Positions 23,488 through 40,846 of a stretch of DNA of 64,000 bases are shown here, piece by piece (position 1 is the stretch's first letter; the number at the start of each line of letters is the position of its first letter). The stretch lies in assembly GCA_029782355.1 (NCBI GenBank), contig JAKOUY010000011.1, positions 310,001 through 374,000 of the forward strand. Reading direction: 5' to 3'. The notes beneath the pieces are model-generated. The model was not told where the DNA came from. It did no database searches and saw nothing but the letters and a program-made list of their open reading frames with translations. The DNA is from Actinomycetes bacterium. Its GTDB lineage: Bacteria; Actinomycetota; Acidimicrobiia; Acidimicrobiales; Ilumatobacteraceae. Made by a program: the position numbers and the translations under genes.

Positions 23488-24082
23488 GTCGCGCTCCGAG
23501 GATCTTCAGGGCGTCGCGCAGCATGACCGCCGCCTCGGCGCCGACCGGTAGGTCACGCAGGGCGTCGCGGATCTCCTCGGGTCCGTAGCCGAGGCCGGCC
23601 AGGGCATCGCGAACGTCGGACACGACGGCGCCGGTGGGCCCGGCGCTGCCGTGGCCACCGCCGACCGGGTCGAGCACCGCCAGGTTGAGCTTGTTGCGCA
23701 GCTCGACCAGCAGTCGCTCGGCCGTCTTCTTGCCCACGCCGGGAACCAGGGTCAGGGCGGCGAGGTCGTTGGTGGCGACCACGTCGGCCAAGGCCGCCGG
23801 GGCGTGCGTCGCCAGGATGGCCATGGCCAACCCCGGACCGATGCCGTGGGTGCCGAGCAGCTGTTGGAAGGTGAGCCGCTCGTCGCCGCGCAGGAACCCG
23901 AACAACGTCTGGGCGTCCTCGCGAATGTGATGGTGGACGTGCAGGAACGCCGTCGACGACGGCTCCAGCTCGGCCAGCGTGCGTGGCGTGACGTGGACGA
24001 CGTAGCCGACGCCGCCGACCTCCAGCAGGACCGTGGCGTCGTCGGATCGCTCCAGGACCACGCCGCGCAGGGATCCGATCAT
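23480..24082 (-). CDS. ruvA: Holliday junction DNA helicase subunit RuvA
   Basis: A 200-residue tetrameric junction-binding protein. It begins [15 protein letters not shown] (OB fold), has helix-hairpin-helix motifs ([38 protein letters not shown]) and a C-terminal RuvB-contacting domain ([17 protein letters not shown]). The ATG at 24082 overlaps the ruvC stop by 4 nt (ATGA). Confidence 0.97.
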
Positions 24083-24672
24083 CGAACCGCCGCCTGCACA
24101 CGCCGGCGCATCGGCGCCGCGGCGAGGTAGCACAGGGCCAGGGCTGCGGCGTCGGCGGCGTCGGCCGGCTTCGGCAGGCTGGCCAGCCCGAGGCGCACCT
24201 GCACCATCCGCTGGATCTGCTCCTTGCCGGCGCTCCCCCACCCAGCGATGGTGACCTTGACCTCGTTGGGGGTGAACTGGACCACGTCGCAGCCGGCCGC
24301 GGCCGCTGCGGCCAGCGCCAGCCCGCTGGCCTGCCCGACGGACATGGCCGTGCGCACGTTGGTCTGGAAGAACACCTGCTCGACCGCCACGGCCTGGGGC
24401 CGGTACTGCTCGAGCAGGCCGACCAGCTCGCGCTGCAGGGCGGCGAGCCGGACGGGCAGCGACTCGGTGGGCGGGGTTCGCACCACGCCGAGGGCGACCG
24501 GGCGGGTCTGCTGACCGGTGGCCGACAGCACGGCGTAGCCGCAGCGGGTCAACCCCGGGTCGATGCCGAGCACGGTCAGCGACCCGGCGGTGTCGCGGCC
24601 GGGGCGGGTGACGGGACGACCCGCGTCGGGCTTGGTCGGATGCGGCGTCGGGTCGGCCACGGGGACGAACAC
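24079..24672 (-). CDS. ruvC: Holliday junction resolvase RuvC
   Basis: About 197 residues. Acidic active-site residues are in GIDPGLTRCGY, AVEQVFFQTNVRTAM and DAADAAALALCYL. About 35 residues precede the fold (VADPTPHPTKPDAGRPV), more than usual. GTG at 24672 is preferred because a TAGTCT hexamer lies 7 nt upstream, matching other starts in this window; a GTG at 24660 is also in frame. First gene of ruvCAB. Confidence 0.93.
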   Translation of the reverse strand: MFVPVADPTPHPTKPDAGRPVTRPGRDTAGSLTVLGIDPGLTRCGYAVLSATGQQTRPVALGVVRTPPTESLPVRLAALQRELVGLLEQYRPQAVAVEQVFFQTNVRTAMSVGQASGLALAAAAAAGCDVVQFTPNEVKVTIAGWGSAGKEQIQRMVQVRLGLASLPKPADAADAAALALCYLAAAPMRRRVQAAVR

Positions 24673-24679
24673 GCGTACG

Positions 24680-24685
24680 AGACTA
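24680..24685 (-). promoter_or_regulatory. Possible -10 element for a leaderless ruvCAB transcript
   Basis: TAGTCT on the minus strand ends 7 nt before the GTG at 24672, with no Shine-Dalgarno sequence between. No LexA-like site was found beside it. Confidence 0.38.
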
Positions 24686-24718
24686 CCAGTCCTGCCGGCG
24701 GCGGCGCGGGATGCCGAG

Positions 24719-24761
24719 GGACGGAAGTGCACTTCGGCGCCGGGGGTCGGGACTTCCGTCC
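24719..24761. repeat. Inverted repeats in the ruvC / acyl-CoA dehydrogenase divergent region
   Basis: GGACGGAAGT (24719-24728) and ACTTCCGTCC (24752-24761) form a perfect 10-bp inverted repeat 23 nt apart. Within the left arm lies a second perfect palindrome, GAAGTGCACTTC (24724-24735). The region is 127-169 nt upstream of the dehydrogenase start and 47-89 nt upstream of ruvC. It looks like a protein-binding site or a large hairpin. Confidence 0.5.
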
Positions 24762-24887
24762 GTGGTCGGCCGGTGACGTCCGGCAGTACGGTGAACGAGA
24801 CATGGATGGCGCCGACGCGTGCTCGAGCCCGAGACGACGTGCGGCGACGACGTGCAACCACTTGCTGCTGATGACGGAGGGGATGGG

Positions 24888-26588
24888 ATGAGTGACACCG
24901 GGGGCCATGTAGGTGGCGCGGGCTTGGACACCGAGACGCTGGGCATGATGCTGGAGGCCCTCGACGAGTTCGTCGGCCACGCCCTGACGCCGCAACGGCA
25001 GCTGGAGCTCGACCACGAGGACGTGTGCCCGGAGGACACCGTCCGGGCGATGTCGGACCCGGAGCAGCTCGGCGTGCAGCTGATCTTCGTCCCCGAGGCC
25101 TACGGCGGCATGGACGGTGGGGCGTTCGACAGCTACCGGGTGTGCGAGGTCATGGCCCGCCACGACATCGGCCTGGCCACCGCCGTGTTCGCCACCTTCC
25201 TCGGCAGCGACCCGATCCTCGTCGGGGCCACCGAGGAGCAGAAGCAGCAGTGGCTCGGAGCCATCGCCGAGCGCGGCGTGGTGTTCGCCTACGGCGCCAC
25301 CGAGCCCGACGCCGGGTCCGATCTCGGCGCCCTGAAGACCACGGCCGTGCGCATCGAGACCGACGGCGAGGTCACCGGCTACCGGATCAACGGTCGCAAG
25401 CAGTGGATCTCCAACGGCTCGATCGCCGACATGTACACGATCCTGGCTCGCACACCCGAGGGACCGTCGTGGTTCGTCGTCGAGAAGGGCACCGCGGGCT
25501 TCACCACGGCCCACCCGGAGGACAAGCACGGCATCCGCCTGTCGAACACCGCGGCGCTGTTCCTCGACGACGTCGAGATCCCCGCAGCCAACCTGATCGG
25601 AGGAGTGGAGGGCGCCGGCCTGGTGCAGGCCCAGCAGGTGTTCGGCTACACCCGCCTGATGGTCGCCGCCTTCGGGCTCGGTGGCGGGTGGGAGGCGCTC
25701 GATCGGGCGATCGCCTACTCGCTGGAGCGCCATCAGGGCGGGGCGCCGCTCGCCGAGAAGCAGGGCTTCACCCACAAGCTGATCGTTCCCCACGCCGTGC
25801 GTCTGGAGGCCGCCCGGGCCTACATGGAGGACACCGCCGACAAGATCGACCGTGGTCTCGGCACCAACGGGGCGATGAACACCGAGGGAGCGATCAGCAA
25901 GCTGATGGCCACCGAGGCCGGCAACGCCGCCGCCGATGCCGCCATCCAGGCCCACGGCGGGTACGGCTACACCCGCGAGTACGTGGTCGAGAAGATCAAG
26001 CGCGACGTGCGCATCACCACGATCTACGAGGGGACCTCGGAGATCATGGAGATGACCATCGCCCGCGACCGCTGGCAGCAGCACCTGAAGACGTCCGGGC
26101 GCTACTACCAGGACCGCGCCGCGGCGCTCGACGCCCTGCATGCCAGCCACCCGACGGTCGGCGCGGCCATTGCCGCGGTGGCCGCCCGGGCCCTCGCCGC
26201 GGTCCTGGAGAGCTGCCGGGTGGCCCGGCTGACCCGGAACCAGCACGTGTTGTTCCGCCTCGGGGAGTTGATCTGCTGGGTCGAGTGCGCCCAGGCCGCC
26301 GCCGAGCGGGCCGCTGCGGCCATCGACGGGCGGTTGCACGAGAAGAGCCCGACGCGCTTCGACGGCAACGCGCTGGCGGCGATGTCACGGGTGTTCGCTC
26401 GCGAGGCCGCGCAGCGCGCCGGCGTCGACGGCGTGCGCTGGGTGGCCGGCTCGGTCACGGCCGGGAGCGCCGACGTTTCCGGGTTGCTCGCCTCGATCCC
26501 CCACGACGCCATCCGCACCGCTCAGGCCGGACTGCTCGACGACATGGATCGCGTCGCCGACGTCCTCTACGCCCGGGCCACCAGCTGA
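24888..26588 (+). CDS. Acyl-CoA dehydrogenase, first gene of the lipid synthase locus
   Basis: A 566-residue flavoenzyme that oxidises acyl-CoA to 2-enoyl-CoA. Visible are the FAD/substrate segment FAYGATEPDAGSDLGALKT, RKQWISNGSIADMYTI, and the catalytic Glu in IYEGTSEIME (Glu381). After about residue 405 it has an extra helical C-terminal domain, as in larger ACADs. The ATG at 24888 has a strong GGAGGGG site at 24876-24882. It is 80 nt upstream of the synthase in the same direction, so it may supply or modify an acyl starter, or introduce a double bond into the product; this is inferred from position only. Confidence 0.92.
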   Translation: MSDTGGHVGGAGLDTETLGMMLEALDEFVGHALTPQRQLELDHEDVCPEDTVRAMSDPEQLGVQLIFVPEAYGGMDGGAFDSYRVCEVMARHDIGLATAVFATFLGSDPILVGATEEQKQQWLGAIAERGVVFAYGATEPDAGSDLGALKTTAVRIETDGEVTGYRINGRKQWISNGSIADMYTILARTPEGPSWFVVEKGTAGFTTAHPEDKHGIRLSNTAALFLDDVEIPAANLIGGVEGAGLVQAQQVFGYTRLMVAAFGLGGGWEALDRAIAYSLERHQGGAPLAEKQGFTHKLIVPHAVRLEAARAYMEDTADKIDRGLGTNGAMNTEGAISKLMATEAGNAAADAAIQAHGGYGYTREYVVEKIKRDVRITTIYEGTSEIMEMTIARDRWQQHLKTSGRYYQDRAAALDALHASHPTVGAAIAAVAARALAAVLESCRVARLTRNQHVLFRLGELICWVECAQAAAERAAAAIDGRLHEKSPTRFDGNALAAMSRVFAREAAQRAGVDGVRWVAGSVTAGSADVSGLLASIPHDAIRTAQAGLLDDMDRVADVLYARATS

Positions 26589-26611
26589 ACCACCACGCCC
26601 CGGCCGACTGC

Positions 26612-26667
26612 CACGGACCCTCGCCGAATCGCTCACGGACCTCCCACGGACTGCACAGGACTGCACA
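26612..26667 (+). promoter_or_regulatory. Direct heptamer repeats upstream of the synthase gene
   Basis: CACGGAC occurs at 26612-26618, 26634-26640 and 26645-26651: start-to-start distances of 22 and 11 bp, so on the same helix face. The decamer GGACTGCACA is then duplicated in tandem at 26648-26657 and 26658-26667, immediately before the ATG at 26669. AGGA at 26657-26660 could be the ribosome site. SARP-type activators of secondary metabolism use direct heptamers at 11- or 22-bp spacing; no SARP gene is in the window and no good -10 follows. Confidence 0.35.
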
Positions 26668-26668
26668 G

Positions 26669-29600
26669 ATGACTTCGCACATCGACCCCGCCGCCACCAC
26701 CTCGCCGGTCGCCATCGTCGGCCTCTCGGCGATCATGCCCGAGGCACCCGACGGGGACGCCTTCTGGAACAACATCGCCAGTGGTCGCTACTCGATCACC
26801 GACGTCCCCCCGGAACGGTGGGACCCCAGCCTGTACTACAGCCCTGACCACGACGCCCCGGACAAGACCTACTCGCGCATCGGCGGGTGGGTGCGCGACT
26901 ACGCCTGGGATCCGATCCGCTGGAAGCTCCCGGTGCCGCCGAAGGTGGCCGAGCAGATGGACCACGGTCAGCGCTGGGCGATCTCGGCGGCGCGCGCCGC
27001 CCTGCTCGACGCCGGTTGGCCGAACTGGTCGACCAACCCGGACAACGTGGCCGTGATCATCGGCAATGCCATCGGCGGGGAGAAGCACTACGAGACCAAC
27101 CTGCGCATCGAGCTCCCCGAGCTGCTGCGCGACCTGGCTGCCACACCCTCGTTCGCCGCTCTGCCCGAGGACCAGCGTCAGCACATCATCGACGAGACCC
27201 GCCGCAAGTTCCTCGGGCACTTCACCGAGGTCAACGAGGACACCATGCCGGGCGAGCTGGCCAACGTCATCGCCGGCCGAATCGCCAACCTGTTCAACTT
27301 CAAGGGCCCCAACTTCACCACCGACGCAGCCTGTGCCAGCGGTCTGGCGGCGATGAGCGTGGCCGTCGAGGGTCTGGTCGATCACCGCTTCGACGCGGCG
27401 ATCACCGGCGGCGTGGACCACAACATGGGCGTCGCCGCGTTCGTCAAGTTCTGCAAGATCGGCGCCCTCTCGGCCACGGGGACCCGGCCGTTCGACGCCG
27501 GTGCGGACGGCTTCGTCATGGGCGAGGGTGCCGCCCTGTTCGTCCTCAAGCGCCTGGAGGACGCCGAGCGCGACGGCGACACGGTCTACGCCGTGATCCG
27601 CTCGATCGCCGGTTCCTCCGACGGCAAGGGCAAGGGAATCACCGCACCGAACCCGATCGGGCAGAAGCTGGCCGTCGCCCGCGCCTGGGAGCTGGCTGGC
27701 GAGGACCCGGGGACGGTGTCGGCCATCGAGGCCCACGGCACCTCCACCCGGGTCGGCGATGCCACCGAGCTGGAGAGCCTGACCGAGGTCTTCGGCGCCG
27801 CCGGGGCACCGCGCCACGGGGTCGCCCTCGGCTCGGTCAAGTCGAACATCGGTCACCTGAAGGCTGCGGCCGGGACCGCCGGGATGTTCAAGATGGTTCG
27901 CAGCCTGCACCACAAGCAGCTGGCTCCGAGCCTCAACTTCCGTGACCCGAACCCGAACGTCGACTGGGATACCTCGCCGTTCGTGGTGAACACGACGCTG
28001 CGCGACTGGCCGCAACCTCCGGCCGGCATCCGCCGCGGCGGCGTCAGCGCCTTCGGCTTCGGCGGGACCAACTTCCACGTCGTCGTCGAGGAGCACCAGC
28101 CGGGCCGGTATCGCCCACGGCCGCGCCAGATGGCGATGGCGGCCGCGGCGTCCTCGCCGGCAGTCGCCTCGTCACCGTCCTCGGCCCCCTCGCCGAGCTA
28201 CCCCGCCCAACCCGGGAAGCTGCCGCTGCGCGGCGCCCTGGTGCTCGGCGGGCTCGACGATGCCGACCTCGTCCGCCAGGCGGCGCCGATCCGCGAGCGC
28301 GCTGCCGCGGGGACCGCTCCCGCCCCGGCGCGCCCCGGCGCCGACGTCCTCGGTGCGCCGGTGCGCCTGGCCGTCGACTACGTCGATGCCGCCGACCTGG
28401 CCACCAAGCTGGGCAAGGCGATCACCGCGTTGCAGACCGCCAACGCGGCGATGCTGCGCATGCTGCGCCAGCAGGGCGTCTTCGTCGGACGCGGCCCGGC
28501 GCCGAAGGTCGCCTTCCTCTACACCGGGCAGGGCTCGCAATACGTCAACATGCTGGCCGAGCTGCGCGCCGCCGAGCCGATCGTGGCCGACACCTTCGCC
28601 GAGGCCGACCGGGTGATGACGCCCCTGCTCGGCAAGCCGCTGACCGATTACATCTTCATCGACGGCGCCGACCCGGCCGCCGTCTCCCAGCTCGAGCACC
28701 AACTGCTGCAGACCGAGATCACCCAGCCGGCCGTGCTGGCCACCGATGCCAGCCTCAGCCGGCTGCTCAACGCCTACGGCATGGTGCCCGACATGGTCAT
28801 GGGCCACAGCCTCGGCGAGTACGGGGCGCTGACCGCGGCCGGATCGCTGACCTTCGACGCCGCGCTCGAAGCCGTCAGTGCCCGGGGGCGGGAGATGGCC
28901 AGCCTGACCGTCGAGGACAACGGGGCGATGGCCGCCGTGTTCGGGCCGCTGGAGGAGATCGAGCGGATCGTCGACGCCACCGATGGCTACGCCGTGGTGG
29001 CGAACATCAACTCGACCCACCAAGCCGTGGTCGGTGGGGCCACTGCAGCGGTCGAGGCCGCTATCAGCGCCTTCACCGCCCAGGGCATCCAGGCGGCGCG
29101 CATCCCGGTGAGCCACGCCTTCCACACCTCCATCGTCGCTCCGGCATCGGTGCCGCTGGTCGACACCCTCCGGCGGTTGAACGTCGCCGCACCGCAGATC
29201 CCGGTCGTGGCCAACGTCGACGGCGAGTTCTATCCGTCGCAGGCGTCCACCGAGACGATGCTCGACTACCTCGGCCGGCAGGTGGCCTCGCCGGTGCAGT
29301 TCGTCAAGGGCCTGCGGACCCTCTACGACGCGGGGGCTCGGGTCTTCGTCGAGGTCGGGCCGAAGCGGGCGCTGTACGGATTCGTCGAGGACGTCCTGGC
29401 CGCGCAGCACGACGACGTCGTCGCCCTGTTCACCAACCATCCCAAGTTGGGTGACGTTGCCTCGGTGAACCAGGCACTGTGCGGCCTGTGGGCCGCCGGC
29501 CTCGGCGCGCCGGCCGCCACTGCGGGCGTTGTGGCCTCGGCGACCACCGCCCCGGCCTCCGCCATCGACGCGGCCGGGGGCCTGCCGGCGCATCGGCCCG

Positions 29601-32600
29601 ATTCGCCGACCAGTTCGGTGGCAGGCATGCCCGGGGGCGGCGATCAGCGGATCGTCGAGCTCGGCAAGCTGTTCGCCGGCGTCCTCGAGCAGGGTCTCAA
29701 GCTGTACGGCGTCGACCCGGCCGCTCAGCCAGCGCCTGGCGGACCCGACTCGGGCGGGTCCCCCAGCTCGACTTCGGTCGTCATCACCGGCGCGGCACTC
29801 GGACTGCCCGGGGTGGACCGCGTCTTCGACGACGCCAACATCGCCCGGATCCTCGCCGGCCAGCAGTTCATCACCTCCGTGCCCGACGCCATCCGCCGAC
29901 GGATGGCGGACATGCACATCACCCGGCTGGTCAAGAGCGAGGCGCGCGGCGCCGGATTCGAGACCATCGACGACCCGGCGGACGTGATCAAGCTCGCCGG
30001 CCGGCACGCCCCGCTCGACATCGTCGCCGAGTTCGCCGTCGACGCGGCGCGCGACGAAGCCCTCGACGCCACCACCCGTCTGGCGATCGGCGCCGGCCTC
30101 GATGCGCTGCGCGACGCCGGGATCCCGCTCGTCATGCACTACAAGACGACCACCCTCGGCACCAAGCTGCCCGACAAGTGGTCGCTGCCGGCTGACCTGG
30201 CCGACGACACCGGGGTCATCTTCGCCTCGGCCTTCCCCGGCTACAACCGCTTCGCCGAGGACATCGAGGCCTACGCCGCCGACCGCGCTCGCCGCGAGCA
30301 CCTGCTGGCACTCGAGGGCCTGCGCACCCTGGTCGGCTCCGGAACACCCGCGGGCACCGAGGTCGATCGGCTGATCGGCCAGCTGCGCGCCGAGCTGGCC
30401 GCCCACCCGTACACGTTCGACCGCCGGTTCCTGTTCCGCGTGCTGGCCATGGGCCACAGCCAGTTCGCCGAGCTGATCGGCGCCCGCGGCCCGAACACCC
30501 AGATCAACGCGGCCTGCGCGTCCACCACGCAGGCGATCAGCCTGGCCGAGGACTGGATCCGTGCCGGCCGCTGCCGGCGCGTCGTGGTCGTCTCGGCCGA
30601 CGATGTCACCGGCGACGCCCTGATGCCGTGGATCGCCAGCGGGTTCCTGGCCTCCGGTGCGGCGGCGACCGACTCGCGCGTCGAGGACGCGGCCACGCCG
30701 TTCGACCGCCGCCGCCACGGGATGATCGTCGGCATGGGCGCGGCCGCGCTGGTCGTCGAGTCGTCCCGTGCCGCCGCCGAACGCGGGCTGCAGCCGATCT
30801 GCGAGGTGCTCGCCGCGGTGACGGCCAACTCGGCCTTCCACGGCACCCGCCTCGACGTCGAGCACATCTGCTCGGTCATGGAGCGCTTGGTGACGATGGC
30901 CGAGCGACGGGGCGTGCATCGCGCCGAGATCGCCGGTTCGACGATGTTCATGTCGCACGAGACGTACACCCCGGCCCGAGGCGGTTCGGCCGCGGCCGAG
31001 ATCAACGCCCTGCGCCAGGTCTTCGGCGCCGGTGCCGACCGGATCGTGATCACGAACACGAAGGGGTTCACCGGTCACGCGATGGGAGCCGGGATCGAGG
31101 ACGTCGTCGCCGTCAAGGCCCTGGAGACCGGACTGGTCCCGCCGGTCCCGAACTACCGGGAGCCGGACCCCGAGCTGGGTTCGTTGAACCTGTCGCGCGG
31201 CGGCTCGTACCCGGTGCAGTACGCCCTGCGCCTCGCAGCCGGCTTCGGCTCGCAGATCGCCATGGCCCTGCTGCGCTGGACACCCGTGGCGGACGGGCAG
31301 CACCGCGACCCGAGCGCGCTGGGCTACGCCTACCGCATCGCCGATCCGGCGGCGTGGCAGCGCTGGCTCGACCGTCTGGCCGGCCGCCCCGGCGCGACCC
31401 TCGAGGTCGACCACCGGCGGCTGCGGATCCACGACCCCGCCACACCGGCCACACCGCCGAGCGCGCCGGCACGACCCGTTGCCACTCCGGCCGCGGCTCC
31501 GTCTCCGGTGGTCGTGGCTCCGGCCGCGCCGGCTCCGGCTTCGGCACCCGCCGCCCCAGCGCCGACCTCGGCTCCGGCCGGGGCGGGGGATGCGGTGTTG
31601 GATCAGGTGACCGCGCTGGTGGCCGGGATGACCGGCTACCCGGCCGACCTGCTCGACCCCGACCTCGACCTCGAAGCCGACCTCGGCGTCGACACCGTCA
31701 AACAAGCCGAAGTGTTCGCCGCGGTCCGCGGCCACTACCAACTCGAACGCGACGACAACCTCAAACTCCACGACTTCCCCACCCTCCGCCACGTCGCCGG
31801 CTGGGTCCACACCAAACTCGGCACCACCCCGACCACCACCCCGACCACGGCAACCCAGCTGCCGGCCGAGACAGACAGTGCTCCGATGGCCCCGCCGGCA
31901 CCCGACGTCATCCACGGCGACTTCGACGCGGTCGACGCCCTCCCCCGCCGGGTCCCGACGCCGGCGCTTCGCCCGCCCATCGGGCAGTGCGCCCCGACCG
32001 GTGTCGTGCTCGACGGCGCCCGGGTCGTGGTCATGCCGGACGGCGGCGGGATCGCCGAGTCGCTGACCAAGAAGCTGGCCAAGGCCGGTGCCACCGTGCT
32101 GACCCTCGACCCGTCGGTCGACGCCGATGCCACGGTGAGCCAGCTCGAGCGCTGGATGGCCGACGGGCCGATCACCGGCGTGTACTGGCTCGCGGCCCTC
32201 GACGACGACGGCGACCTCGGCGACTACGACCTGGCCGCCTGGACCGAGGCCCTTCGCCGCCGGGTCAAACTGCTCTACGCCACGATGCGTGCGCTGTACG
32301 AGGCCGGTCCGTTCCTGGTGTCGGCGACCCGCCTCGGCGGATCGCACGGGTACGACGCCGCCGGGGCCACCAACCCGCTCGGCGGAGCGGTCACCGGGTT
32401 CACCAAGTCGTACAAGAAGGAGAAGCCCACCAGCCTGGTCAAGGCCGTCGACCTCCCCGCCAGTCGCAAGACGGCGGCGATCGCCGATCAACTGATCGAG
32501 GAGACGCTGTCCGATCCGGGCTGCGTCGAGATCGGCCGGGTCGACGACCGGCGCATCGGGATCGCCCTCGTCGAGCGTCCGTTCCCCGAGCGTGGTGGCG

Positions 32601-34435
32601 ACGGCCAGGCGCCCGAGGGATCCGGCATGCGCCTCGACCACGACACCGTGTTCGTGGTGACCGGGGCCGCCGGCAGCATCGTCTCGGCGATCACGGCCGA
32701 TCTCGCTGCCGCCTCCGGCGGCGTCTTCCACCTGCTCGATCTGACACCGAGCCCCGACCCGTCCGATCCGGACCTGGCGGCGTTCCGCGCCGATCGGGAC
32801 GCCTTGAAGGCGACCATCGCCGCCCGGCTGAAGGACGCCGGCGATCGACCGACACCGGTCGCCATCGATCGCGAGCTGGCTCGCTACGAGCGGCTCAACG
32901 CCGCGCTCACTGCGGTCCAGGCGGTCCAGGCGGCCGGCGGCACGGCCCACTACCACTCCGTCGACCTGACCAACGCCGGCGCCGTCGCCGCCGTGATGGC
33001 CGAGGTGGCCGAGATCAGCGGGCGGATCGACGTCCTGCTGCACGCCGCCGGTCTGGAGATCAGTCGCAACCTGCCCGAGAAGCAGCCTGGCGAGTACGAC
33101 CTGGTCTTCGACGTCAAGGCCAACGGCTGGTTCAACGTCTTCTCGGCCGCGGCGGCCATGCCGATCGGTGCCACCGTGGTGTTCTCCTCGGTCGCCGGAC
33201 GGTTCGGCAACCAGGGCCAGACCGACTACTCGGCTGCCAACGATCTGCTCTGCAAAATCATCTCGAACATGCGCCGGGTGCGCCCGCAGACCCGAGCGAT
33301 CGCCCTCGACTGGACGGCCTGGGGTGGGATCGGCATGGCCACACGCGGCTCGATCCCCAAGATCATGGAGATGGCGGGGGTGCAGATGCTGCCGCCCGAG
33401 GCCGGCATCGCCTGGATCCGCCGCGAGCTGACCTCGGGGCACGTCGGCGGCGAGGTGGTCGTGGCCGGAGTCCTCGGGATGATGGCCATGGAGTACGCCG
33501 AGCGCGGCGGCCTGGCAGCGGAGTCCGGAGCGCCGGCCGGCCCGATGGTCGGTCACTGGGAGCTCAGCGTCCACCGTGGCGTCGTGGCGACGACCACCCT
33601 CGATCCCGCCGCCCAGCCGTTCCTCGACCACCATCGCATCGACGGCACCCCGGTGCTGCCCGGTGTGATGGGGATGGAGGCCTTCGCCGACACGGCACGG
33701 CGGGTGGCTCCCGACCACGTCGTCACCGCAATCGAGGACGTCAGCTTCGCCGCCCCGTTGAAGTTCTTCCGTGACGCCCCGCGAACCCTGACCATCGAGG
33801 CGGTGGTCCAGCCGGACGGCGACGAACTGGTGGCTGACTGCCAGCTGTCGGCCGAGCGCCAGCTGCCCGGCCAGGACGCCCCGCAGCGCACCGTGCACTT
33901 CACCGGGCGAGTCCGCCTGGCCCCCTCCCGGCCGGCTGTGGAGCGTGCCGAGCACCAACCCGGTCAGCGCCCGAAGACGGCGCTCGGGGCCGGCGAGGTG
34001 TACTCGTTCTACTTCCACGGACCGGCCTACCAGGTGGTGTCCGAGGCGTGGGCCGATGGTGAGTCGTCGGTCGCCACCCTGGCCCGCCCGCTGCCCGAGA
34101 ACCACCACCCGGCGGCACTGGCACTGTCGAGCAGCCCACGGCTGATCGAACTGTGCTTCCAGACCGCAGGGCTGTGGGAGGCCGGTCGTCAGGACCGCCT
34201 GGCGCTCCCCCGTCACGTCGGCCGGGCGGTGTTCCTGGTCGATCCCGACGGCGAGTCGGTCGCCAGTCGCGCCATGGCCACCGCCCGATCCGCCGACGAG
34301 TTCGACTGCGTCGTGCTGGCTGAGGACGGCACCGTCGTGGCCCGTCTCGAGGGCTACGGGACCGTGCCGCTGCCGGCGCCGATCGAGCCGTCCGTGGCCG
34401 AGGCGCTGCACCGGGCCTACCCGGCCGGCTCCTAG
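26669..34435 (+). CDS. Multidomain lipid/polyketide synthase, KS-AT-KS-ACP-KR-DH
   Basis: A 2588-residue iterative-type synthase related to PfaA-like secondary-lipid (polyunsaturated fatty acid-type) synthases. KS1, about 13-475, has Cys222 in DAACASG, His356 in EAHGTST and His396 in SNIGHLKAAAG. AT, about 610-910, has Ser714 in GHSLGEY and HAFH near 817, the malonyl-type motif. KS2, about 1036-1540, has Cys1283 in NAACAS and later SHETYTP and NTKGFTGH. ACP, about 1640-1721, reads LGVDTVKQAE with Thr1676 where the pantetheinylated Ser is expected. KR, about 1775-2270, has GAAGSI and a Ser-Tyr2187-Asn2191 triad. DH, about 2300-2588, has His2322 in HRIDGTPVLP, but Glu2494 replaces the usual Asp. 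No ER, methyltransferase or thioesterase was seen. The upstream open frame overlaps the dehydrogenase gene and is not coding; the start is MTSHIDP. Confidence 0.92.
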   Translation: MTSHIDPAATTSPVAIVGLSAIMPEAPDGDAFWNNIASGRYSITDVPPERWDPSLYYSPDHDAPDKTYSRIGGWVRDYAWDPIRWKLPVPPKVAEQMDHGQRWAISAARAALLDAGWPNWSTNPDNVAVIIGNAIGGEKHYETNLRIELPELLRDLAATPSFAALPEDQRQHIIDETRRKFLGHFTEVNEDTMPGELANVIAGRIANLFNFKGPNFTTDAACASGLAAMSVAVEGLVDHRFDAAITGGVDHNMGVAAFVKFCKIGALSATGTRPFDAGADGFVMGEGAALFVLKRLEDAERDGDTVYAVIRSIAGSSDGKGKGITAPNPIGQKLAVARAWELAGEDPGTVSAIEAHGTSTRVGDATELESLTEVFGAAGAPRHGVALGSVKSNIGHLKAAAGTAGMFKMVRSLHHKQLAPSLNFRDPNPNVDWDTSPFVVNTTLRDWPQPPAGIRRGGVSAFGFGGTNFHVVVEEHQPGRYRPRPRQMAMAAAASSPAVASSPSSAPSPSYPAQPGKLPLRGALVLGGLDDADLVRQAAPIRERAAAGTAPAPARPGADVLGAPVRLAVDYVDAADLATKLGKAITALQTANAAMLRMLRQQGVFVGRGPAPKVAFLYTGQGSQYVNMLAELRAAEPIVADTFAEADRVMTPLLGKPLTDYIFIDGADPAAVSQLEHQLLQTEITQPAVLATDASLSRLLNAYGMVPDMVMGHSLGEYGALTAAGSLTFDAALEAVSARGREMASLTVEDNGAMAAVFGPLEEIERIVDATDGYAVVANINSTHQAVVGGATAAVEAAISAFTAQGIQAARIPVSHAFHTSIVAPASVPLVDTLRRLNVAAPQIPVVANVDGEFYPSQASTETMLDYLGRQVASPVQFVKGLRTLYDAGARVFVEVGPKRALYGFVEDVLAAQHDDVVALFTNHPKLGDVASVNQALCGLWAAGLGAPAATAGVVASATTAPASAIDAAGGLPAHRPDSPTSSVAGMPGGGDQRIVELGKLFAGVLEQGLKLYGVDPAAQPAPGGPDSGGSPSSTSVVITGAALGLPGVDRVFDDANIARILAGQQFITSVPDAIRRRMADMHITRLVKSEARGAGFETIDDPADVIKLAGRHAPLDIVAEFAVDAARDEALDATTRLAIGAGLDALRDAGIPLVMHYKTTTLGTKLPDKWSLPADLADDTGVIFASAFPGYNRFAEDIEAYAADRARREHLLALEGLRTLVGSGTPAGTEVDRLIGQLRAELAAHPYTFDRRFLFRVLAMGHSQFAELIGARGPNTQINAACASTTQAISLAEDWIRAGRCRRVVVVSADDVTGDALMPWIASGFLASGAAATDSRVEDAATPFDRRRHGMIVGMGAAALVVESSRAAAERGLQPICEVLAAVTANSAFHGTRLDVEHICSVMERLVTMAERRGVHRAEIAGSTMFMSHETYTPARGGSAAAEINALRQVFGAGADRIVITNTKGFTGHAMGAGIEDVVAVKALETGLVPPVPNYREPDPELGSLNLSRGGSYPVQYALRLAAGFGSQIAMALLRWTPVADGQHRDPSALGYAYRIADPAAWQRWLDRLAGRPGATLEVDHRRLRIHDPATPATPPSAPARPVATPAAAPSPVVVAPAAPAPASAPAAPAPTSAPAGAGDAVLDQVTALVAGMTGYPADLLDPDLDLEADLGVDTVKQAEVFAAVRGHYQLERDDNLKLHDFPTLRHVAGWVHTKLGTTPTTTPTTATQLPAETDSAPMAPPAPDVIHGDFDAVDALPRRVPTPALRPPIGQCAPTGVVLDGARVVVMPDGGGIAESLTKKLAKAGATVLTLDPSVDADATVSQLERWMADGPITGVYWLAALDDDGDLGDYDLAAWTEALRRRVKLLYATMRALYEAGPFLVSATRLGGSHGYDAAGATNPLGGAVTGFTKSYKKEKPTSLVKAVDLPASRKTAAIADQLIEETLSDPGCVEIGRVDDRRIGIALVERPFPERGGDGQAPEGSGMRLDHDTVFVVTGAAGSIVSAITADLAAASGGVFHLLDLTPSPDPSDPDLAAFRADRDALKATIAARLKDAGDRPTPVAIDRELARYERLNAALTAVQAVQAAGGTAHYHSVDLTNAGAVAAVMAEVAEISGRIDVLLHAAGLEISRNLPEKQPGEYDLVFDVKANGWFNVFSAAAAMPIGATVVFSSVAGRFGNQGQTDYSAANDLLCKIISNMRRVRPQTRAIALDWTAWGGIGMATRGSIPKIMEMAGVQMLPPEAGIAWIRRELTSGHVGGEVVVAGVLGMMAMEYAERGGLAAESGAPAGPMVGHWELSVHRGVVATTTLDPAAQPFLDHHRIDGTPVLPGVMGMEAFADTARRVAPDHVVTAIEDVSFAAPLKFFRDAPRTLTIEAVVQPDGDELVADCQLSAERQLPGQDAPQRTVHFTGRVRLAPSRPAVERAEHQPGQRPKTALGAGEVYSFYFHGPAYQVVSEAWADGESSVATLARPLPENHHPAALALSSSPRLIELCFQTAGLWEAGRQDRLALPRHVGRAVFLVDPDGESVASRAMATARSADEFDCVVLAEDGTVVARLEGYGTVPLPAPIEPSVAEALHRAYPAGS
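31660..31830 (+). other. ACP-coding segment with deviant codon use
   Basis: Across the ACP core all three Lys codons are AAA, all three Glu codons GAA and both Gln codons CAA, and Leu is nearly all CTC, whereas the surrounding gene mostly uses AAG, GAG, CAG and CTG (occasional AAA/GAA exist elsewhere). The protein motif spans DLDLEADLGVDTVKQAE to AGWVHTKLG. The shift begins and ends near the domain boundaries, suggesting the ACP was acquired or replaced by recombination. Confidence 0.55.
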
Positions 34436-34438
34436 GGT
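34433..34438 (+). promoter_or_regulatory. Possible -10 element overlapping the synthase stop codon
   Basis: TAGGGT contains the synthase TAG stop and ends 7 nt before the ATG at 34446. It could give a leaderless carboxylase transcript in addition to read-through from the synthase. Confidence 0.25.
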
Positions 34439-34445
34439 GACCTCC

Positions 34446-37400
34446 ATGGGCACCCCGACCGTCGCGCCCGCTGCCAGCCCGTCGAGCGGGCGCGTTCCCG
34501 CCCCGAGCCGCATCGGCGTGGTCGAGCGAGGCGAGGCCGCCGTACGGATCCTGACCGCGCTCGGCGGCCTGGTCGTCGACGGTGGTCCGCCGACGACGAC
34601 CGTGCTGTTCACCACGGAGCGGGAGTCGCCGTGGTACGGGCGCGAGGCCGACGATGTCGTCCACCTCCCCGGCCGACCGAGTCCTGCCGGCGATCTGTCC
34701 CCGTCGATCGACGAGTGGCTCGACGCGTTCGGACGGGCACAGGTCGACACGGTGTGGATCGGGCGACCGGCCGTGCTCGGAACCGTCACCACGCACGGTC
34801 CGACCGAGCGCGCTGCGCTGCTGGCCGCCTGCGCTCGACGCGGCCTGAGCGTGATCGGACCCGATCCGGCCACCGTCGAGCGCCTCCTCGGCGCAGGGAG
34901 CCTGACCGAGCTGGCCACCGCCGCTGGGCTGGGGGTCGGACGCCGGCCGGAGCCCGGTCAGGGCTCGTGCCGGTTGATCGATGTCGACGTGCTCGTCGAC
35001 CACGCTGGGACGGTGTGGGCGCTGGACTGCCGCGACGTCTCCCTTCGACGCGGCGACGAACCGGTGATGGTCGAATCGCCGCCGGCCGCAAGCGCCCACG
35101 GACCCGACGACGCGGCGCTCTCGGCCTGGACGTCGGCCGCGGCGCGAGTTGCCGAGGCCGCCGGGTTGCATGGCGCGGCGGTGGTCACCCTGCGGGTCGA
35201 CGACGCCGGCCAACCGGCCGGGCGCATCGAGCTGGTCGGTGTCGACACCGTGGCCACGCCGCTGCACGCCACCACCGAGGAGCGCACCGGAACCAGCGTG
35301 ATCGGTTGGCGACTGCGCCTGGCCCACGGCGCGTCACTCGACCGCAGCGCTCCCGCCGGGGAGGGCGTCGTCGTCGAGGCCCGACTGATGGCCGTCGACA
35401 TCGGCGCCGGCCCGGACGGGAGCGATCGGGTTGCCGGTGGTCGGGTGGCGCTGTTGTCCTTCCCCGTCGGCACCGGGGTGCGCATCGACGCCAACCGCCG
35501 CCCGGGCGATCCGGTGTCAAGTGACGACCCACTGCTGGCCGTGATCACCGCGTGGGGACCGGATCGTGCCGTCGCCATCGGCCGGCTGCGCCGAGCCCTG
35601 GCACGAACCGCCGTGGTCGTGGACGGTGGGGTCACCAACCGCGCCTTCCTGCTCGACCTGCTCGGCCGGGACGATGTGGCCAGCGGGCGGACCGATTGCT
35701 CCTGGCTGGACGCCGTGGTCGCCGCTGGTGACCCGGCGCCGCCCGACCCGCTGGCCCTGGTCGCCGGGGCGATCGAGGCCTACGAGGCCGACCGCTCGAT
35801 GGCCGAGGTGGCCTTCTTCGCCACCGCCGAGCGCGGCCGGCCGGAACGGCCCGAGGACGTCGGCGCCGCCCTCGAACTGGCCTACCGCGGGGTGCCCTAC
35901 GTCGTGCAGGTCGACCGGACCGCGGCGCGCCAGTACGCCGTCCGGCTGGGCGACCAGGTCGCCGAGGTGACCTACGACCGGCTCAACGAGTTCGAGCGCC
36001 GCCTGGCCTGCGCCGGCCGCCGCCACCGAGCGGTGGTCACACCGAGCGGCCATGGGGTCCGTGTCGAGCTCGACGGGGTCGCCCATCGGGTCGAGCGCGA
36101 AGACGGCATCGTCGTGCGCGCCGCGGCGCCGGCCCTGGTCGTCGCCCCCCTGGTCCAGCCCGGTCAGACGGTCACCGCCGGCACGCCCATCGCCGTGCTC
36201 GAGTCGATGAAGATGGAGACCACCGTCACCGCCCCGTTCGACGGCGAGGTGCTGGCAGTCTCCGTGGTGGCCAACTCGCAGGTCGAGGGCGGTGCGCCGC
36301 TCATGCGCATCCGGCCGCTCACCTCCCGGGCGGTGGCCGATCATGCGCCGGCCGAACCACTCGGACTCGCCGGCCTGGAGCGGCGCGTCGACACCACCCG
36401 GAAGCCGTGCGATCGGGTCTACGAGCCGCTCGGCAACTACCTGCTGGGCTACGACCTGGCACACGCCGACCTCCGCCGGTTGCTGACCCAGCAACGGCGG
36501 CTGGCCGAGATCGCCGCGCCCGACGACGCCGACCTGCTGGCCTGCGAGGACGGGCTGTTGGACATCTACGCCGAGCTCGGGGCCCTGTACCGGCCGACCA
36601 CCGAGGCTTCCGGCGAGCCCGGCGACGACGTCACGACGGAGAACACCCAGGAGTACCTGACCGCCTTCCTCCAGTGGCTGGACGCCGACCGCGCCGGCTT
36701 GCCCGAGCCGTATCGGGCCCGGCTGCGCACCGCGCTGGCCCGCTACGGCGTGACCAGCCTGCGCTCGCCGCAGCTGCGCGAGGCGCTGATGTGGTTGTTC
36801 CGCTCGGTCACCCGCCTCGGTGAGCTCGGTCCGGTGGTGACGGCGATCCTCGAGCGCCGCCTGGCCCACGCGGACGCCGTCCGGCCGCACACCGGCGCCG
36901 ACGGCCGAGCCCGCCTCGAGCGGCTGGCGAGCGCCACGGACGGTCGCCAGCAAGCCATCGCCGACCTGGCTCGCGACGTCGAGTTCCGCGACTTCGACGA
37001 GCCGCCCATGCTCGCCGCCGCCGCCGAGCTGGACGCCGAGATGTCCGCGCATCTCGCAGTGCTCACCGAGCATCCCGACGCGCCCGACCGGGCCGAACGG
37101 ATCGCCCGTCTGGTGTGGTGCCCGAACCCGTTGCGCTCGTTGCTGCTCACCACCTGGCGGGCGGCCGGCCCCCACGCCACGGCCGTCCGGGATCTGGTCC
37201 TGGAGATCCACCTCCGCCGCTTCTACCGGATCCGCCAGCTCGGCGAGATCCGCTTCGTCGACGCCGGCGCCGTTCGCGTCGCCGCCTGCGACTATCCCCA
37301 CGACGGCCAGCCGGTGCAACTGTGGGCCACGTACTGCCCGCTCGCCGACGCCCCGGCAGCCATGGCCGCCCTCGCCCCGCTGGCCGACGCGGTGCCGCCG

Positions 37401-39959
37401 GGCACCCAGATCGTGGTCGACCTGGTGACCTGGACGGCCGACCCGCTCGGCGACGTGCAGCGTGCCGCCGACGATGCTGCGGCGACGCTGGCGCCGCACG
37501 GCTGGACCCACCCGCTGCATCGCCTCGACCTGACCGTCACCCATGACCGTGCCGGCGGCACGGTGGACGCCGCTGCCGGCGACACCGCCGACCAGCCCGG
37601 TGACGAACACCTGCGAACCCGCAACCTGACCTTCCGCCAGGACGCAGATGGATCGCTGGTCGAGGAACGGCTGTACCGCAACCTGCACCCGATGCTGGCC
37701 AAGCGCCTGGAGATCTGGCGGTTGGCCAACTTCGAGCTCGAGCGGCTGGCCTCCCCGGAGGACGTCTACCTGTTCCTCGGCGTGGCCCGCACCAATCCCA
37801 AGGACCGCCGGCTGTTCGCCCTGGCGGAGGTCCGTGACCTCACCCCGGCACAGACCGCGTCTCCAGGCACGGACGGTTCGCGCACGTCCTACCCCCGCTT
37901 GGAACGCACCGTGCTGCTGGCGCTGGCGGCGATGCGCGCCGAGCTGAGCCGCTTCGTCCCGGCCGATCGTCCGACGATCAACCGGATGGTCGTGGCCGTC
38001 ACCGCACCGTGGACCATGCCACTGGCCGACCGCGAAGCCGTGGCCCAGCGGTTCGCTCCGATGGCCCGGCGAGTCGGCCTGGAGAAGGTCGTCGTCAAGG
38101 TGCAGATCCCCGACGACACCGCTCCCGGCGGGCTGCGCGATGCGGTGCTGCACTTCGAGGGGGTCGGGCGGACGGTGCTCGTGCGCGAGGACACCGCCGG
38201 CGACCAGCCGGTCAGCCCGCTGAGCGGCTACAAGCAGAAGGTCCTCACCGCTGCCCGGTTCGGCTCGCCGTACCCGTACGAGATCGCCAAGCTGTTTGGT
38301 CAGCTGAACCCGCGGCGCAGCGGGCTGGCACCGGACACCTTCGTCGAGCTCGATCTGGACGACACGGGTGAGGAGCTCGTGCCGGTGGACCGCCTGGCCG
38401 GCAGCAACACGGCGCACATCGTGGTCGGGCTGCTGACCAACCACACCGAGGTCGTCCCCGAGGGGATCACGCGTGTCGCCCTGCTCTCCGACCCGACGCA
38501 GGGCCTCGGCAATCTCGCCGAGCCCGAGTGCCGGCGGATCAACGCCGCGCTGGCCTACGCCGCCGCCCACCAGCTGCCCGTGGAGTGGTTCGCCGTCAGC
38601 TCCGGCGCGCTGATCGCCATGGACTCGGGCACGGAGAACATGGACTGGATCGCCCTGACGTTGCGCCGGCTGATCGAGTTCACCCAGGCCGGCGGGGAGA
38701 TCAACATCGTCGTCACCGGCATCAACGTCGGCGGCCAGCCGTACTGGAACGCCGAGGCGACGATGCTGACCCACACCCGCGGCATCCTGGTCATGACCCC
38801 GGCGTCGGCCATGGTGCTGACCGGCAAGCAAGCCCTCGACTTCTCCGGGGCGGTGTCCGCCGAGGACAACTTCGGCATCGGCGGTTACGACCGGGTGATG
38901 GGTCCGAACGGCCAGGCCCAGTACTGGGCCCCGTCGTTCACCGACGCCTGCCGGCTCCTCCTGCGGCACTACGACCTGACCTACGTGGTCCCCGGTGAGC
39001 GCTTCCCCCGCCGCCGGCCCACCGCCGATCCCGCCGACCGTGACGTCCGCCCCAGCCCACACGCCGTGCTGGCGGACAGCCCGTTCACCACCGTCGGCGA
39101 CGTCTTCTCCGCCGACCTCAACCCGGAGCGCAAGCAGCCCTTCGACATGCGCTCGGTGATGCGCGCCGTCGCTGACGCCGACAGCGAGCCGCTCGAGCGT
39201 TGGAAGGACCTGCGCGACGGCGACACCTCGATCGTCTGGGACACCACCGTGGGTGGGATCCCGGTGCTGCTGCTCGGCCTGGAGTCGCACACCGTGCGCC
39301 GAACCGGCTACGTGCCCGCCGACGGCCCGCCGGCGTGGACCTCGGGCACCCTGTTCCCGCACTCGTCGCGCAAGACCGCCCGCTCGATCAACGCCGCCAG
39401 CGGCAACCGTCCGCTGGTGGTGCTGGCCAACCTCTCCGGGTTCGACGGCTCACCCGAATCGATGCGCCGCCGGCAGCTGGAGTTCGGCGCCGAGATCGGC
39501 CGGGCGGTGACCAACTTCGACGGGCCGATCGTGTTCGTCGTGGTCTCGCGCTATCACGGCGGGGCATTCGTGGTGTTCTCCAAGGCGCTCAACGAGTCGA
39601 TGGAGATCGCCGCCGTCGAGGGCAGCTATGCCTCGGTGATCGGCGGTGCACCCGCGGCAGCCACGGTGTTCGCCCGCGACGTCAAGCAGCGCACCGAGCG
39701 CGACCCGCGTGTGGTCGATGCCCGCCAGGCGGTGGCCGGCGCGGCGCCCGCCGACGCCGCCGCGGCCCGCGCCCGGTTGGCCGAGCTGACCGCCGCGGTG
39801 CGCTCGGAGAAGCTCGGCGAGGTGGCCGACGAGTTCGACTCGATCCACACCATCGAGCGCGCCCAACGGGTCGGCTCGGTCGACCGGATCATCGCCGCCG
39901 CCGACCTGCGCCCCTACGTCATCGACGCCCTCGAACGGGGCATGGCCCGCTTCACCTGA
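34446..39959 (+). CDS. Eukaryote-style multidomain acyl-CoA carboxylase with a degenerate biotin carboxylase domain
   Basis: An 1837-residue fusion in the order BC-like, BCCP, ACC central region, carboxyltransferase. BC-like residues about 22-405 keep the N-terminal RIGVVERGEAAVRIL and a C-terminal lobe, but only about 35 residues separate VIGPDPATVERL from LIDVDVLVDHAG, where AccC has roughly 95, so the glycine-rich ATP-grasp lid is missing, and no EMN-R-QVEH motif remains. The BCCP has biotinyl Lys589 in ESMKMET. The central region includes HPMLAKRLEIWRLANFELERL and NPKDRRLFALAEVRDLTP, like eukaryotic ACC. The CT half includes GNLAEPECRRINAAL, GKQALDFSGAVSAEDN and GPNGQAQYWAPS. Starts: ATG 34446 or GTG 34437. 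Expected role is malonyl-CoA supply to the synthase or carboxyl transfer with BC supplied in trans. Confidence 0.88.
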   Translation: MGTPTVAPAASPSSGRVPAPSRIGVVERGEAAVRILTALGGLVVDGGPPTTTVLFTTERESPWYGREADDVVHLPGRPSPAGDLSPSIDEWLDAFGRAQVDTVWIGRPAVLGTVTTHGPTERAALLAACARRGLSVIGPDPATVERLLGAGSLTELATAAGLGVGRRPEPGQGSCRLIDVDVLVDHAGTVWALDCRDVSLRRGDEPVMVESPPAASAHGPDDAALSAWTSAAARVAEAAGLHGAAVVTLRVDDAGQPAGRIELVGVDTVATPLHATTEERTGTSVIGWRLRLAHGASLDRSAPAGEGVVVEARLMAVDIGAGPDGSDRVAGGRVALLSFPVGTGVRIDANRRPGDPVSSDDPLLAVITAWGPDRAVAIGRLRRALARTAVVVDGGVTNRAFLLDLLGRDDVASGRTDCSWLDAVVAAGDPAPPDPLALVAGAIEAYEADRSMAEVAFFATAERGRPERPEDVGAALELAYRGVPYVVQVDRTAARQYAVRLGDQVAEVTYDRLNEFERRLACAGRRHRAVVTPSGHGVRVELDGVAHRVEREDGIVVRAAAPALVVAPLVQPGQTVTAGTPIAVLESMKMETTVTAPFDGEVLAVSVVANSQVEGGAPLMRIRPLTSRAVADHAPAEPLGLAGLERRVDTTRKPCDRVYEPLGNYLLGYDLAHADLRRLLTQQRRLAEIAAPDDADLLACEDGLLDIYAELGALYRPTTEASGEPGDDVTTENTQEYLTAFLQWLDADRAGLPEPYRARLRTALARYGVTSLRSPQLREALMWLFRSVTRLGELGPVVTAILERRLAHADAVRPHTGADGRARLERLASATDGRQQAIADLARDVEFRDFDEPPMLAAAAELDAEMSAHLAVLTEHPDAPDRAERIARLVWCPNPLRSLLLTTWRAAGPHATAVRDLVLEIHLRRFYRIRQLGEIRFVDAGAVRVAACDYPHDGQPVQLWATYCPLADAPAAMAALAPLADAVPPGTQIVVDLVTWTADPLGDVQRAADDAAATLAPHGWTHPLHRLDLTVTHDRAGGTVDAAAGDTADQPGDEHLRTRNLTFRQDADGSLVEERLYRNLHPMLAKRLEIWRLANFELERLASPEDVYLFLGVARTNPKDRRLFALAEVRDLTPAQTASPGTDGSRTSYPRLERTVLLALAAMRAELSRFVPADRPTINRMVVAVTAPWTMPLADREAVAQRFAPMARRVGLEKVVVKVQIPDDTAPGGLRDAVLHFEGVGRTVLVREDTAGDQPVSPLSGYKQKVLTAARFGSPYPYEIAKLFGQLNPRRSGLAPDTFVELDLDDTGEELVPVDRLAGSNTAHIVVGLLTNHTEVVPEGITRVALLSDPTQGLGNLAEPECRRINAALAYAAAHQLPVEWFAVSSGALIAMDSGTENMDWIALTLRRLIEFTQAGGEINIVVTGINVGGQPYWNAEATMLTHTRGILVMTPASAMVLTGKQALDFSGAVSAEDNFGIGGYDRVMGPNGQAQYWAPSFTDACRLLLRHYDLTYVVPGERFPRRRPTADPADRDVRPSPHAVLADSPFTTVGDVFSADLNPERKQPFDMRSVMRAVADADSEPLERWKDLRDGDTSIVWDTTVGGIPVLLLGLESHTVRRTGYVPADGPPAWTSGTLFPHSSRKTARSINAASGNRPLVVLANLSGFDGSPESMRRRQLEFGAEIGRAVTNFDGPIVFVVVSRYHGGAFVVFSKALNESMEIAAVEGSYASVIGGAPAAATVFARDVKQRTERDPRVVDARQAVAGAAPADAAAARARLAELTAAVRSEKLGEVADEFDSIHTIERAQRVGSVDRIIAAADLRPYVIDALERGMARFT

Positions 39960-40009
39960 CCGGCGGGCGACCGACGCCCTGCCCCCAACGGCCGGTGCAG
40001 CCGTTCTGG

Positions 40010-40045
40010 TCGTGACCGGAACCGCACGGGCGGTTCGAGTCACGA
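40010..40045. terminator. Hairpin between convergent carboxylase and phosphopantetheinyl transferase genes
   Basis: Outer TCGTGAC (40010-40016) pairs with GTCACGA (40039-40045); inner AACCGC (40020-40025) pairs with GCGGTT (40030-40035) around an ACGG loop. No T-run. It sits 50 nt after the carboxylase stop and 34 nt after the PPTase stop, so it probably acts in both directions. Confidence 0.55.
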
Positions 40046-40078
40046 CACGAACGGGTGGGAGCGGCGGTCCGCCCGGCG

Positions 40079-40846
40079 TCACCGCCGGACGAGGGGCTCG
40101 GTCTGCCAGGTGTGCAGGGGTTCGGCCGCGGCCAGGTCGCTCCCGCCCGGCAGCATGACCGGCGGGGTGTCGGGCAGGTGTGACTCGGCGAAGCAGACCG
40201 TCAGCACGAACTGGCCGTCGCGCCGCCAGTAGCCGGGGAACTGCTGATCGAGGGCGGTCACCTGCAGGCGCCCCCATCCCGAGGCGTCCGCGGCTCGCCC
40301 GTCGAGGGCGACGTGCACCTGGTGGGTGTCGACGCGCAGACCGAGCTGCAGCACCTTCAGGGCGGCCTCCTTCGCCGACCAGTGCAGGTTGGCCAGGGCG
40401 TGACGGTCGTCGTCGGTCGCCGCGGCGCGCACGATGCCCGCCTCGGTGGCGGTCAGGAAGTCGGCGACGAACTCGGGACTGCGCTCCTCGACGATCTCCA
40501 GGTCGACCCCCAGGGTTCCGGCCTCGAACGAGCCCGGCGGGCTGACCAGGCACACCGCCCAGCCGGCGCGGTCGGTGAGCGAGACGTCCACCGCCGCGGC
40601 CTCCCCGTCGACCATCACGAACGGCGCGCCACTGGGGCGGTTGCGGATCTCGACCCGGCGCAGCTGCTCCGGGTTGGTGCCGAGACCCAGTGCGGCAGCC
40701 ACCGCATGCTTGGACGTCCACCGCCGGACCAGGTACTCGCGGTGCGGTTTGGTGAACCGGAACGTGGCCAGCCGGGCCATCTCCCCCGCCGACAACCAGT
40801 CGCGGTCGTCGGGCAGGTCGGGTTCCCCGTGGGCCAGCCAGCGCAT
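40079..40846 (-). CDS. Sfp-type 4'-phosphopantetheinyl transferase
   Basis: A 255-residue enzyme that moves phosphopantetheine from CoA to carrier proteins. Motifs in order: [26 protein letters not shown], the metal-binding [11 protein letters not shown] near residue 110, and [19 protein letters not shown] near residue 155. It is encoded on the opposite strand, convergent with the carboxylase, and is the natural partner for the synthase ACP, whose attachment residue is Thr rather than Ser. Divergent from gpsA with 46 nt between starts. Confidence 0.93.

Follow-up and report, generated by a model that had tools for sequence, protein, structure and literature searches.

Threonine at the carrier site of a PfaA-related lipid synthase and the phosphopantetheinyl transferase linked to it

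A stretch of 64,000 nucleotides of actinobacterial DNA (Ilumatobacteraceae, contig JAKOUY010000011.1; hereafter the window) carries a four-gene locus built around a 2588-residue megasynthase, whose acyl carrier protein (ACP) domain has threonine at the position where 4'-phosphopantetheine is attached. Related synthases with the same threonine are found in several phyla, fall into a single clade, and are nearly always linked to phosphopantetheinyl transferases (PPTases) of one kind. Judging from the sequences, we consider it fairly probable that the locus encodes a Type-R-like iterative secondary-lipid synthase with a carrier that would be phosphopantetheinylated on this threonine. On balance we also lean towards a broader proposal, that of a multi-phylum class of carriers which would hold 4'-phosphopantetheine on threonine, have a dedicated PPTase group, and be insulated from the serine carriers of the cell. 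New here are the pairing of a threonine carrier with a linked PPTase, the mutual exclusion, in the loci compared, of two enzymes beside the synthase, an acyl-CoA dehydrogenase (ACAD) and the enoyl reductase (ER) PfaD, and a degenerate biotin carboxylase (BC); the locus itself is real, conserved and multi-phylum.

A threonine carrier and its PPTase

The synthase and the PPTase are laid out as follows (KS, ketosynthase; AT, acyltransferase; KR, ketoreductase; DH, dehydratase):

26669-34435, + strand: megasynthase, 2588 residues, open frame, KS1-AT-KS2-ACP-KR-DH
26696-28108, + strand: KS1, with C222, H356 and H396; sister clade to PfaA KS
28499-29503, + strand: AT, motif GHSLGE
29894-31303, + strand: KS2, a family-specific ketosynthase, with C1283, H1430 and H1470 intact
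31574-31843, + strand: ACP domain
31694-31696, + strand: Thr1676, codon ACC, at the phosphopantetheine attachment position, aligned with the serine of solved ACPs
32009-33478, + strand: KR, motif DYSAAN
33509-34432, + strand: DH, double hot-dog, motif HxxxGxxxxP and second motif PRLIELCFQ
40846-40079, - strand: Sfp-type PPTase, 255 residues, open frame, of the group linked to threonine-carrier synthases

The window ACP reads DLEADLGVDTVKQAE, with the core LGVDTVKQAE. Its threonine aligned with the serine of solved ACPs in all alignments shown (7 and 6 domain alignments, five chains each), so the serine that marks the phosphopantetheine site of canonical ACPs is absent. The domain is marginal for Pfam, with 20.7 bits where the cut-off is 20.8, a score that the threonine may partly explain.

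A genome scan with six peptides of the window synthase, two of them from KS2, yielded 67 related loci. The window and these loci hold 170 copies of a strict carrier motif, 168 with threonine and 2 with serine, both in L025; the motif also allowed alanine, cysteine and glycine at the site, and none of these was seen. It had no match in L035, L038, L063 and L064, and a looser motif found three threonine copies in L035. Since all four threonine codons are used (ACC 82, ACG 68, ACA 11, ACT 7), it is the residue and not the codon that is conserved, and the core around the site shows little or no variation across 33 chosen copies. That only serine and threonine, both hydroxyl residues, occur at the site is an argument for a functional hydroxyl.

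Serine carriers were found in other proteins. With a motif accepting serine or threonine, 28 family genomes gave 110 copies: 89 with threonine, all in VKQAE, 19 with serine in SIKRVE, and the two SVKQAE copies of L025. The SIKRVE carriers occur in genomes G419, G422, G428, G431 and G435, and those of the last four sit in PfaA-type proteins devoid of KS2. In 199 genomes sampled from the phylum of G426 there were 51 matches: 45 have threonine, 4 have serine and 2 are SecY (GMDTVKQIE in G780 and G754, rejected as threonine carriers and removed from the count); for 188 genomes from the phylum of G431, at least 61 threonine and 89 serine carriers are among the 150 copies listed. In both samples, among the matches listed, threonine always stands in VKQAE and serine in SIK[RQ]. 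A pattern restricted to VKQAE matched in two of 294 genomes from the phylum of G419, namely G419 (serine) and G428 (threonine). As a baseline, 30 carrier loci out of a longer list were compared in ten family genomes: all 23 non-family carriers have serine and all 7 family carriers threonine.

We also picked 19 places from the serine-or-threonine motif matches, which gives a sample free of the bias of KS2 peptides. They comprise 16 threonine synthases, the 2 SecY genes and one serine synthase without KS2. Fifteen of the 16 threonine synthases have KS2, the view of the last one ending before it, and 13 have a PPTase, the view ending too early in the other 3.

In a KS1 tree rooted on PfaC KS, 42 threonine rows group with L025 in a single clade (SH-aLRT 99), which adjoins seven serine rows (SH-aLRT 98), and L025 groups with two of the threonine rows (97). 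Two changes are enough to account for this tree, and we read them as a gain of threonine and one return to serine.

Of 53 loci whose downstream flank spans at least 1 kb, 48 have a PPTase, either adjacent, after the carboxylase gene described below, or fused. The five others are the serine loci L025 and L129, and L048, L122 and L123, for which the visible stretch stops within the carboxylase or shortly behind it. Scored with a PPTase model, the locus enzymes reach 120-262 bits, versus 18-74 bits for the other PPTases in 20 of these genomes. Activation of the carrier by the linked PPTase, as the original prediction had it, is plausible.

Published work describes threonine at this site as an engineered and non-functional state. 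The S36T ACP of E. coli is reported to receive no 4'-phosphopantetheine and to be non-functional (PMC3340395), so threonine is not neutral there; it is also reported to lose IscS binding (PMC13343975, 2026), and spinach ACP-I S38T is reported to be non-functional (Jaworski 1989, as cited in PMC9310384). In the family studied here threonine is the conserved natural state. Because the E. coli mutant is reported as unmodified, we infer that the linked PPTase group is adapted to threonine. No natural carrier with threonine at the site was among the matches listed by a literature search run mostly outside subscription journals, and the accessible part of PMC8436480 has nothing on threonine at the carrier site. 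Threonine-linked phosphopantetheine would apparently be an unreported protein modification.

Place among the lipid synthases

The original prediction had recognised a four-gene locus with a KS-AT-KS-ACP-KR-DH synthase. This layout holds: all four frames are open, and Pfam finds two KS, one AT, a KR, two DH halves and one PP-binding domain in the synthase, with no match for an ER, a thioesterase or a methyltransferase. The domain list was thus right, while the threonine at the carrier site, the degenerate BC, the eukaryote-like layout of the carboxylase and a one-protein synthase type described in 2011 had been overlooked. The gene set recurs elsewhere, the four genes being together in the window, L011, L021, L042, L131 and L134.

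By their record titles, the 67 loci come from Actinomycetota, Woeseiaceae, Acidobacteriota, Chloroflexota, Elusimicrobiota, Planctomycetota, Myxococcota and metagenome-assembled genomes labelled Heimdallarchaeota. The synthases on Heimdallarchaeota-labelled contigs (L022, L023, L035, L072) may reflect real transfer or mis-binning. The window's own phylum seldom carries the synthase: 3 of 396 sampled genomes have it, matches below 120 bits being treated as FabF-type background.

Architecture was compared in 29 long proteins, the window synthase and 28 relatives, each of at least 2450 residues. KS1, AT, KS2, ACP and KR are present in all 29, and a DH is detectable in 27. The order is KS1-AT-KS2-ACP(1-5)-KR(-DH) in 25 of them; in the remaining four (L039, L043, L056, L074) one ACP precedes KS2. 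A second order, KS1-AT-ACP(2-3)-KS2-KR-DH-PPTase, was seen in seven loci from the carrier-motif search (L116-L121, L133), where the PPTase is fused C-terminally and separate pieces right after it weakly match the carboxylase model. The window has one ACP and the relatives one to six. As the contigs of several relatives stop within the ACP array, an assembly trap exemplified by the public contigs of L009, L010 and L020, the window's lone ACP may stem from the collapse of a tandem in assembly.

In the trees, KS1 forms one clade; with PfaC KS as the root, PfaA KS is its sister group, which bears out the earlier description of a PfaA-related secondary-lipid synthase. The KS2 sequences group together as well; their clade sits on a very long branch and away from PfaC KS, and where it attaches deeper in the tree is unsure. 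A modular polyketide synthase with a known product, considered as a candidate, is rejected on the basis of these two positions. The top PDB-profile matches of KS2 are FabF-type enzymes, with matched stretches starting at about residue 180. The Cys-His-His triad is complete in both ketosynthases of the window, and an alignment of 20 chosen KS2 sequences shows the cysteine, histidine, lysine and histidine invariant in all 20. A chain length factor (CLF) is by definition a ketosynthase that has lost its active-site cysteine; a KS2 acting as a CLF with a lost active site is rejected, since the site is intact. It is probably KS2, nevertheless, that the 2011 scheme for Type R synthases names CLF.

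Type R secondary lipid synthases were listed as uncharacterised by Shulse & Allen in 2011 (PMC3098273). They are described as a single PfaA homologue, KS-MAT-CLF-ACP(3-6)-KR, with a PPTase downstream and a product unknown; a Koribacter member has an acetyl-CoA carboxylase gene in between, comparable to the carboxylase here, and the members belong to Acidobacteria, Elusimicrobia and Chloroflexi, phyla in which the present family also occurs, among others. The window similarly has one PfaA homologue with KS, AT, second KS, ACP and KR in this order, and its PPTase follows the carboxylase on the opposite strand. Two differences were noted: section 7 of that paper lists no DH, whereas the window synthase has one, and the second KS, there termed CLF, has a full active site here. 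A text search of its main text found no 'threonine', no 'LGID' and no 'acyl-CoA dehydrogenase'. We conclude that the family is of a known kind and fits Type R, by a match of descriptions and by the clustering of relatives from the same phyla. The original prediction had set the locus against split, ER-bearing systems, a contrast that passes over Type R, already described as one PfaA homologue plus a PPTase.

Dehydrogenase, carboxylase and neighbouring genes

The other two genes of the locus are an ACAD gene and a gene for a fused multidomain carboxylase:

24888-26588, + strand: ACAD, 566 residues, open frame, with the IYEGT motif and E381 kept
34437-39959, + strand: fused multidomain carboxylase, 1840 residues, open frame
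34437-35786, + strand: degenerate BC part, with the ATP-grasp B domain and ExNxRxQVEH lost
36210-36212, + strand: biotinyl-lysine codon of the biotin carboxyl carrier protein (BCCP) part, ESMKMETTV
38244-39956, + strand: carboxyltransferase (CT), strongly conserved

The IYEGT motif is presumably catalytic. The best NCBIfam match of the ACAD is acryloyl-CoA reductase, at 245 of 640 and far below the cut-off. In 17 of 67 loci whose upstream flank reaches at least 2.5 kb, an ACAD gene is found no more than 600 bp ahead of the synthase. Two further cases are the window, with a gap of 80 bp, and L126, with 766 bp; the window falls outside the 17 since the stop-to-stop frame of its synthase overlaps the ACAD gene. 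An all-against-all blastp for conserved neighbours, which produced many antisense shadow frames and Elusimicrobia-only genes, led to PfaD: this enoyl reductase stands beside the synthase in 12 chloroflexotal loci, in L052, and in the serine synthase locus L129. When the 40 loci with both flanks are considered, 11 have ACAD, 10 have PfaD, none has both and 19 have neither. Among 15 genomes with the ACAD arrangement, 14 have no PfaD above cut-off anywhere; the exception is G419, which has PfaD and SIKRVE carriers. That ACAD and PfaD are not together at any locus examined suggests, and is only suggestive, that ACAD replaces the PfaD enoyl reductase. The ER missing from the synthase may then be explained by the adjoining PfaD in Chloroflexota and by the dehydrogenase in the window.

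In the carboxylase, Pfam detects BC (in weak pieces), BCCP, ACC_central and CT in one chain, which is the large eukaryote-like multidomain type. An actinobacterial acetyl-CoA carboxylase of about 200 kDa with this layout, SACE_4237, has been described (PMC6491548). The window copy differs from it by its degenerate BC and by its place within a lipid locus; the catalytic BC of the SACE_4237 type is lacking. Eleven carboxylases were aligned: the ATP-grasp B domain and ExNxRxQVEH are missing from those of the window, L123 and L131, the BC is altered in L134 and L122, and it is intact in the other six, whereas the biotin lysine is present in all 11. Identity between the window and L042 is 347/568 in CT and 122/388 in BC. 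Because the BC active site is gone, the window carboxylase is not expected to charge biotin alone, and the self-contained malonyl-CoA supply of the original prediction finds no support, though the biotin lysine and CT are kept. Two more BC-like frames exist in the window genome, on C13 and C35, the latter with an internal stop.

RuvC is directly upstream of the locus, with RuvB, RuvA and RuvC at 22459-24861 (- strand); GpsA, an AhpC/TSA gene, YebC and a PdxT-like gene follow, the last two at 42375-43748 (- strand). Since ruvC and yebC adjoin each other in many actinobacteria, the lipid locus may have inserted between these two genes. Scanning the window for Rfam families (gathering threshold) and for tRNAs gave no matches. 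Further along, at 57623-62437 (+ strand), a 1604-residue frame has BatA-like, VWA and glutamine-amidotransferase-like domains and is perhaps more than one gene.

Proposed mechanism and alternatives

We propose that the linked PPTase would put 4'-phosphopantetheine on Thr1676, that the AT would load malonyl units for condensation by KS1 and presumably KS2, and that the KR would reduce and the DH dehydrate the products. The upstream ACAD would substitute for the PfaD of other members, or otherwise set unsaturation, and the CT half of the carboxylase would take carboxybiotin from another BC of the cell, acting in trans.

The threonine carrier might instead be an unmodified docking domain, with a distinct serine ACP, such as the housekeeping AcpP, carrying the chain. 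The report that E. coli S36T ACP stays unmodified (PMC3340395) fits this view, and the window genome does have an AcpP-like serine carrier (L175, G000:C35:495563). We nevertheless find it unlikely: the site is threonine or serine in 170 of 170 copies, the core is near-invariant in the 33 chosen copies, each protein has one to six carriers, and 48 of 53 loci have a PPTase beside or fused to the synthase, features that a domain used for docking alone would hardly need. It is also possible, but in our view doubtful, that this is an ordinary Type R synthase in which the threonine has no special meaning, any Sfp-type PPTase accepting it. Serine and threonine differ by one methyl, and L025 tolerates the other residue; yet S36T (PMC3340395) and spinach S38T (PMC9310384) are reported dead, and threonine has been kept over deep divergence, in genomes whose other Pfa-type carriers have serine. 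As to a standard polyunsaturated fatty acid (PfaA) system left incomplete in the window genome, the best NCBIfam model for the synthase is indeed PfaA (TIGR02813, 809.9 bits), and the family shares KS, AT, an ACP tandem and KR with PfaA, their KS clades being sisters. The score nevertheless falls short of the curated 1010.1 bits, KS1 branches outside the PfaA clade, KS2 stands between AT and ACP, and no PfaD above cut-off exists in the genome; moreover, six PfaA-type proteins compared have serine carriers (SIKRVE) and no KS2, where the family has threonine and KS2. This explanation is very improbable.

Several observations weigh against a carrier modified on threonine by its own PPTase, with ACAD in the place of PfaD. 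The serine locus L025 retains the same architecture, so threonine is dispensable. The 67 loci are biased towards KS2 carriers, since the query peptides came from the window synthase, and 36 locus PPTases trained the very model that scores locus PPTases. G419 (serine) has a diverged PPTase elsewhere, L165 (97 bits), which joins the threonine-linked PPTase group on a long branch (SH-aLRT 82); the argument that a serine locus goes without a PPTase of the threonine-linked kind is weakened by it. On the PPTase tree the threonine group takes two changes, and many branches are long. Finally, 19 of 40 loci have neither ACAD nor PfaD, and the exclusivity of the two tracks lineages; a naive calculation, which ignores kinship, puts the chance of 0 in 40 at 0.024.

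The phosphopantetheinyl serine of carrier proteins is generally held to be universal, and the exchange of serine for threonine has served as a null mutation in E. coli. A natural clade in which threonine is retained would broaden the definition of a carrier protein, and the threonine carrier with its linked PPTase is a candidate orthogonal pair for engineering. For a type of lipid synthase that was listed as uncharacterised in 2011, a threonine-linked phosphopantetheine would provide a testable feature.

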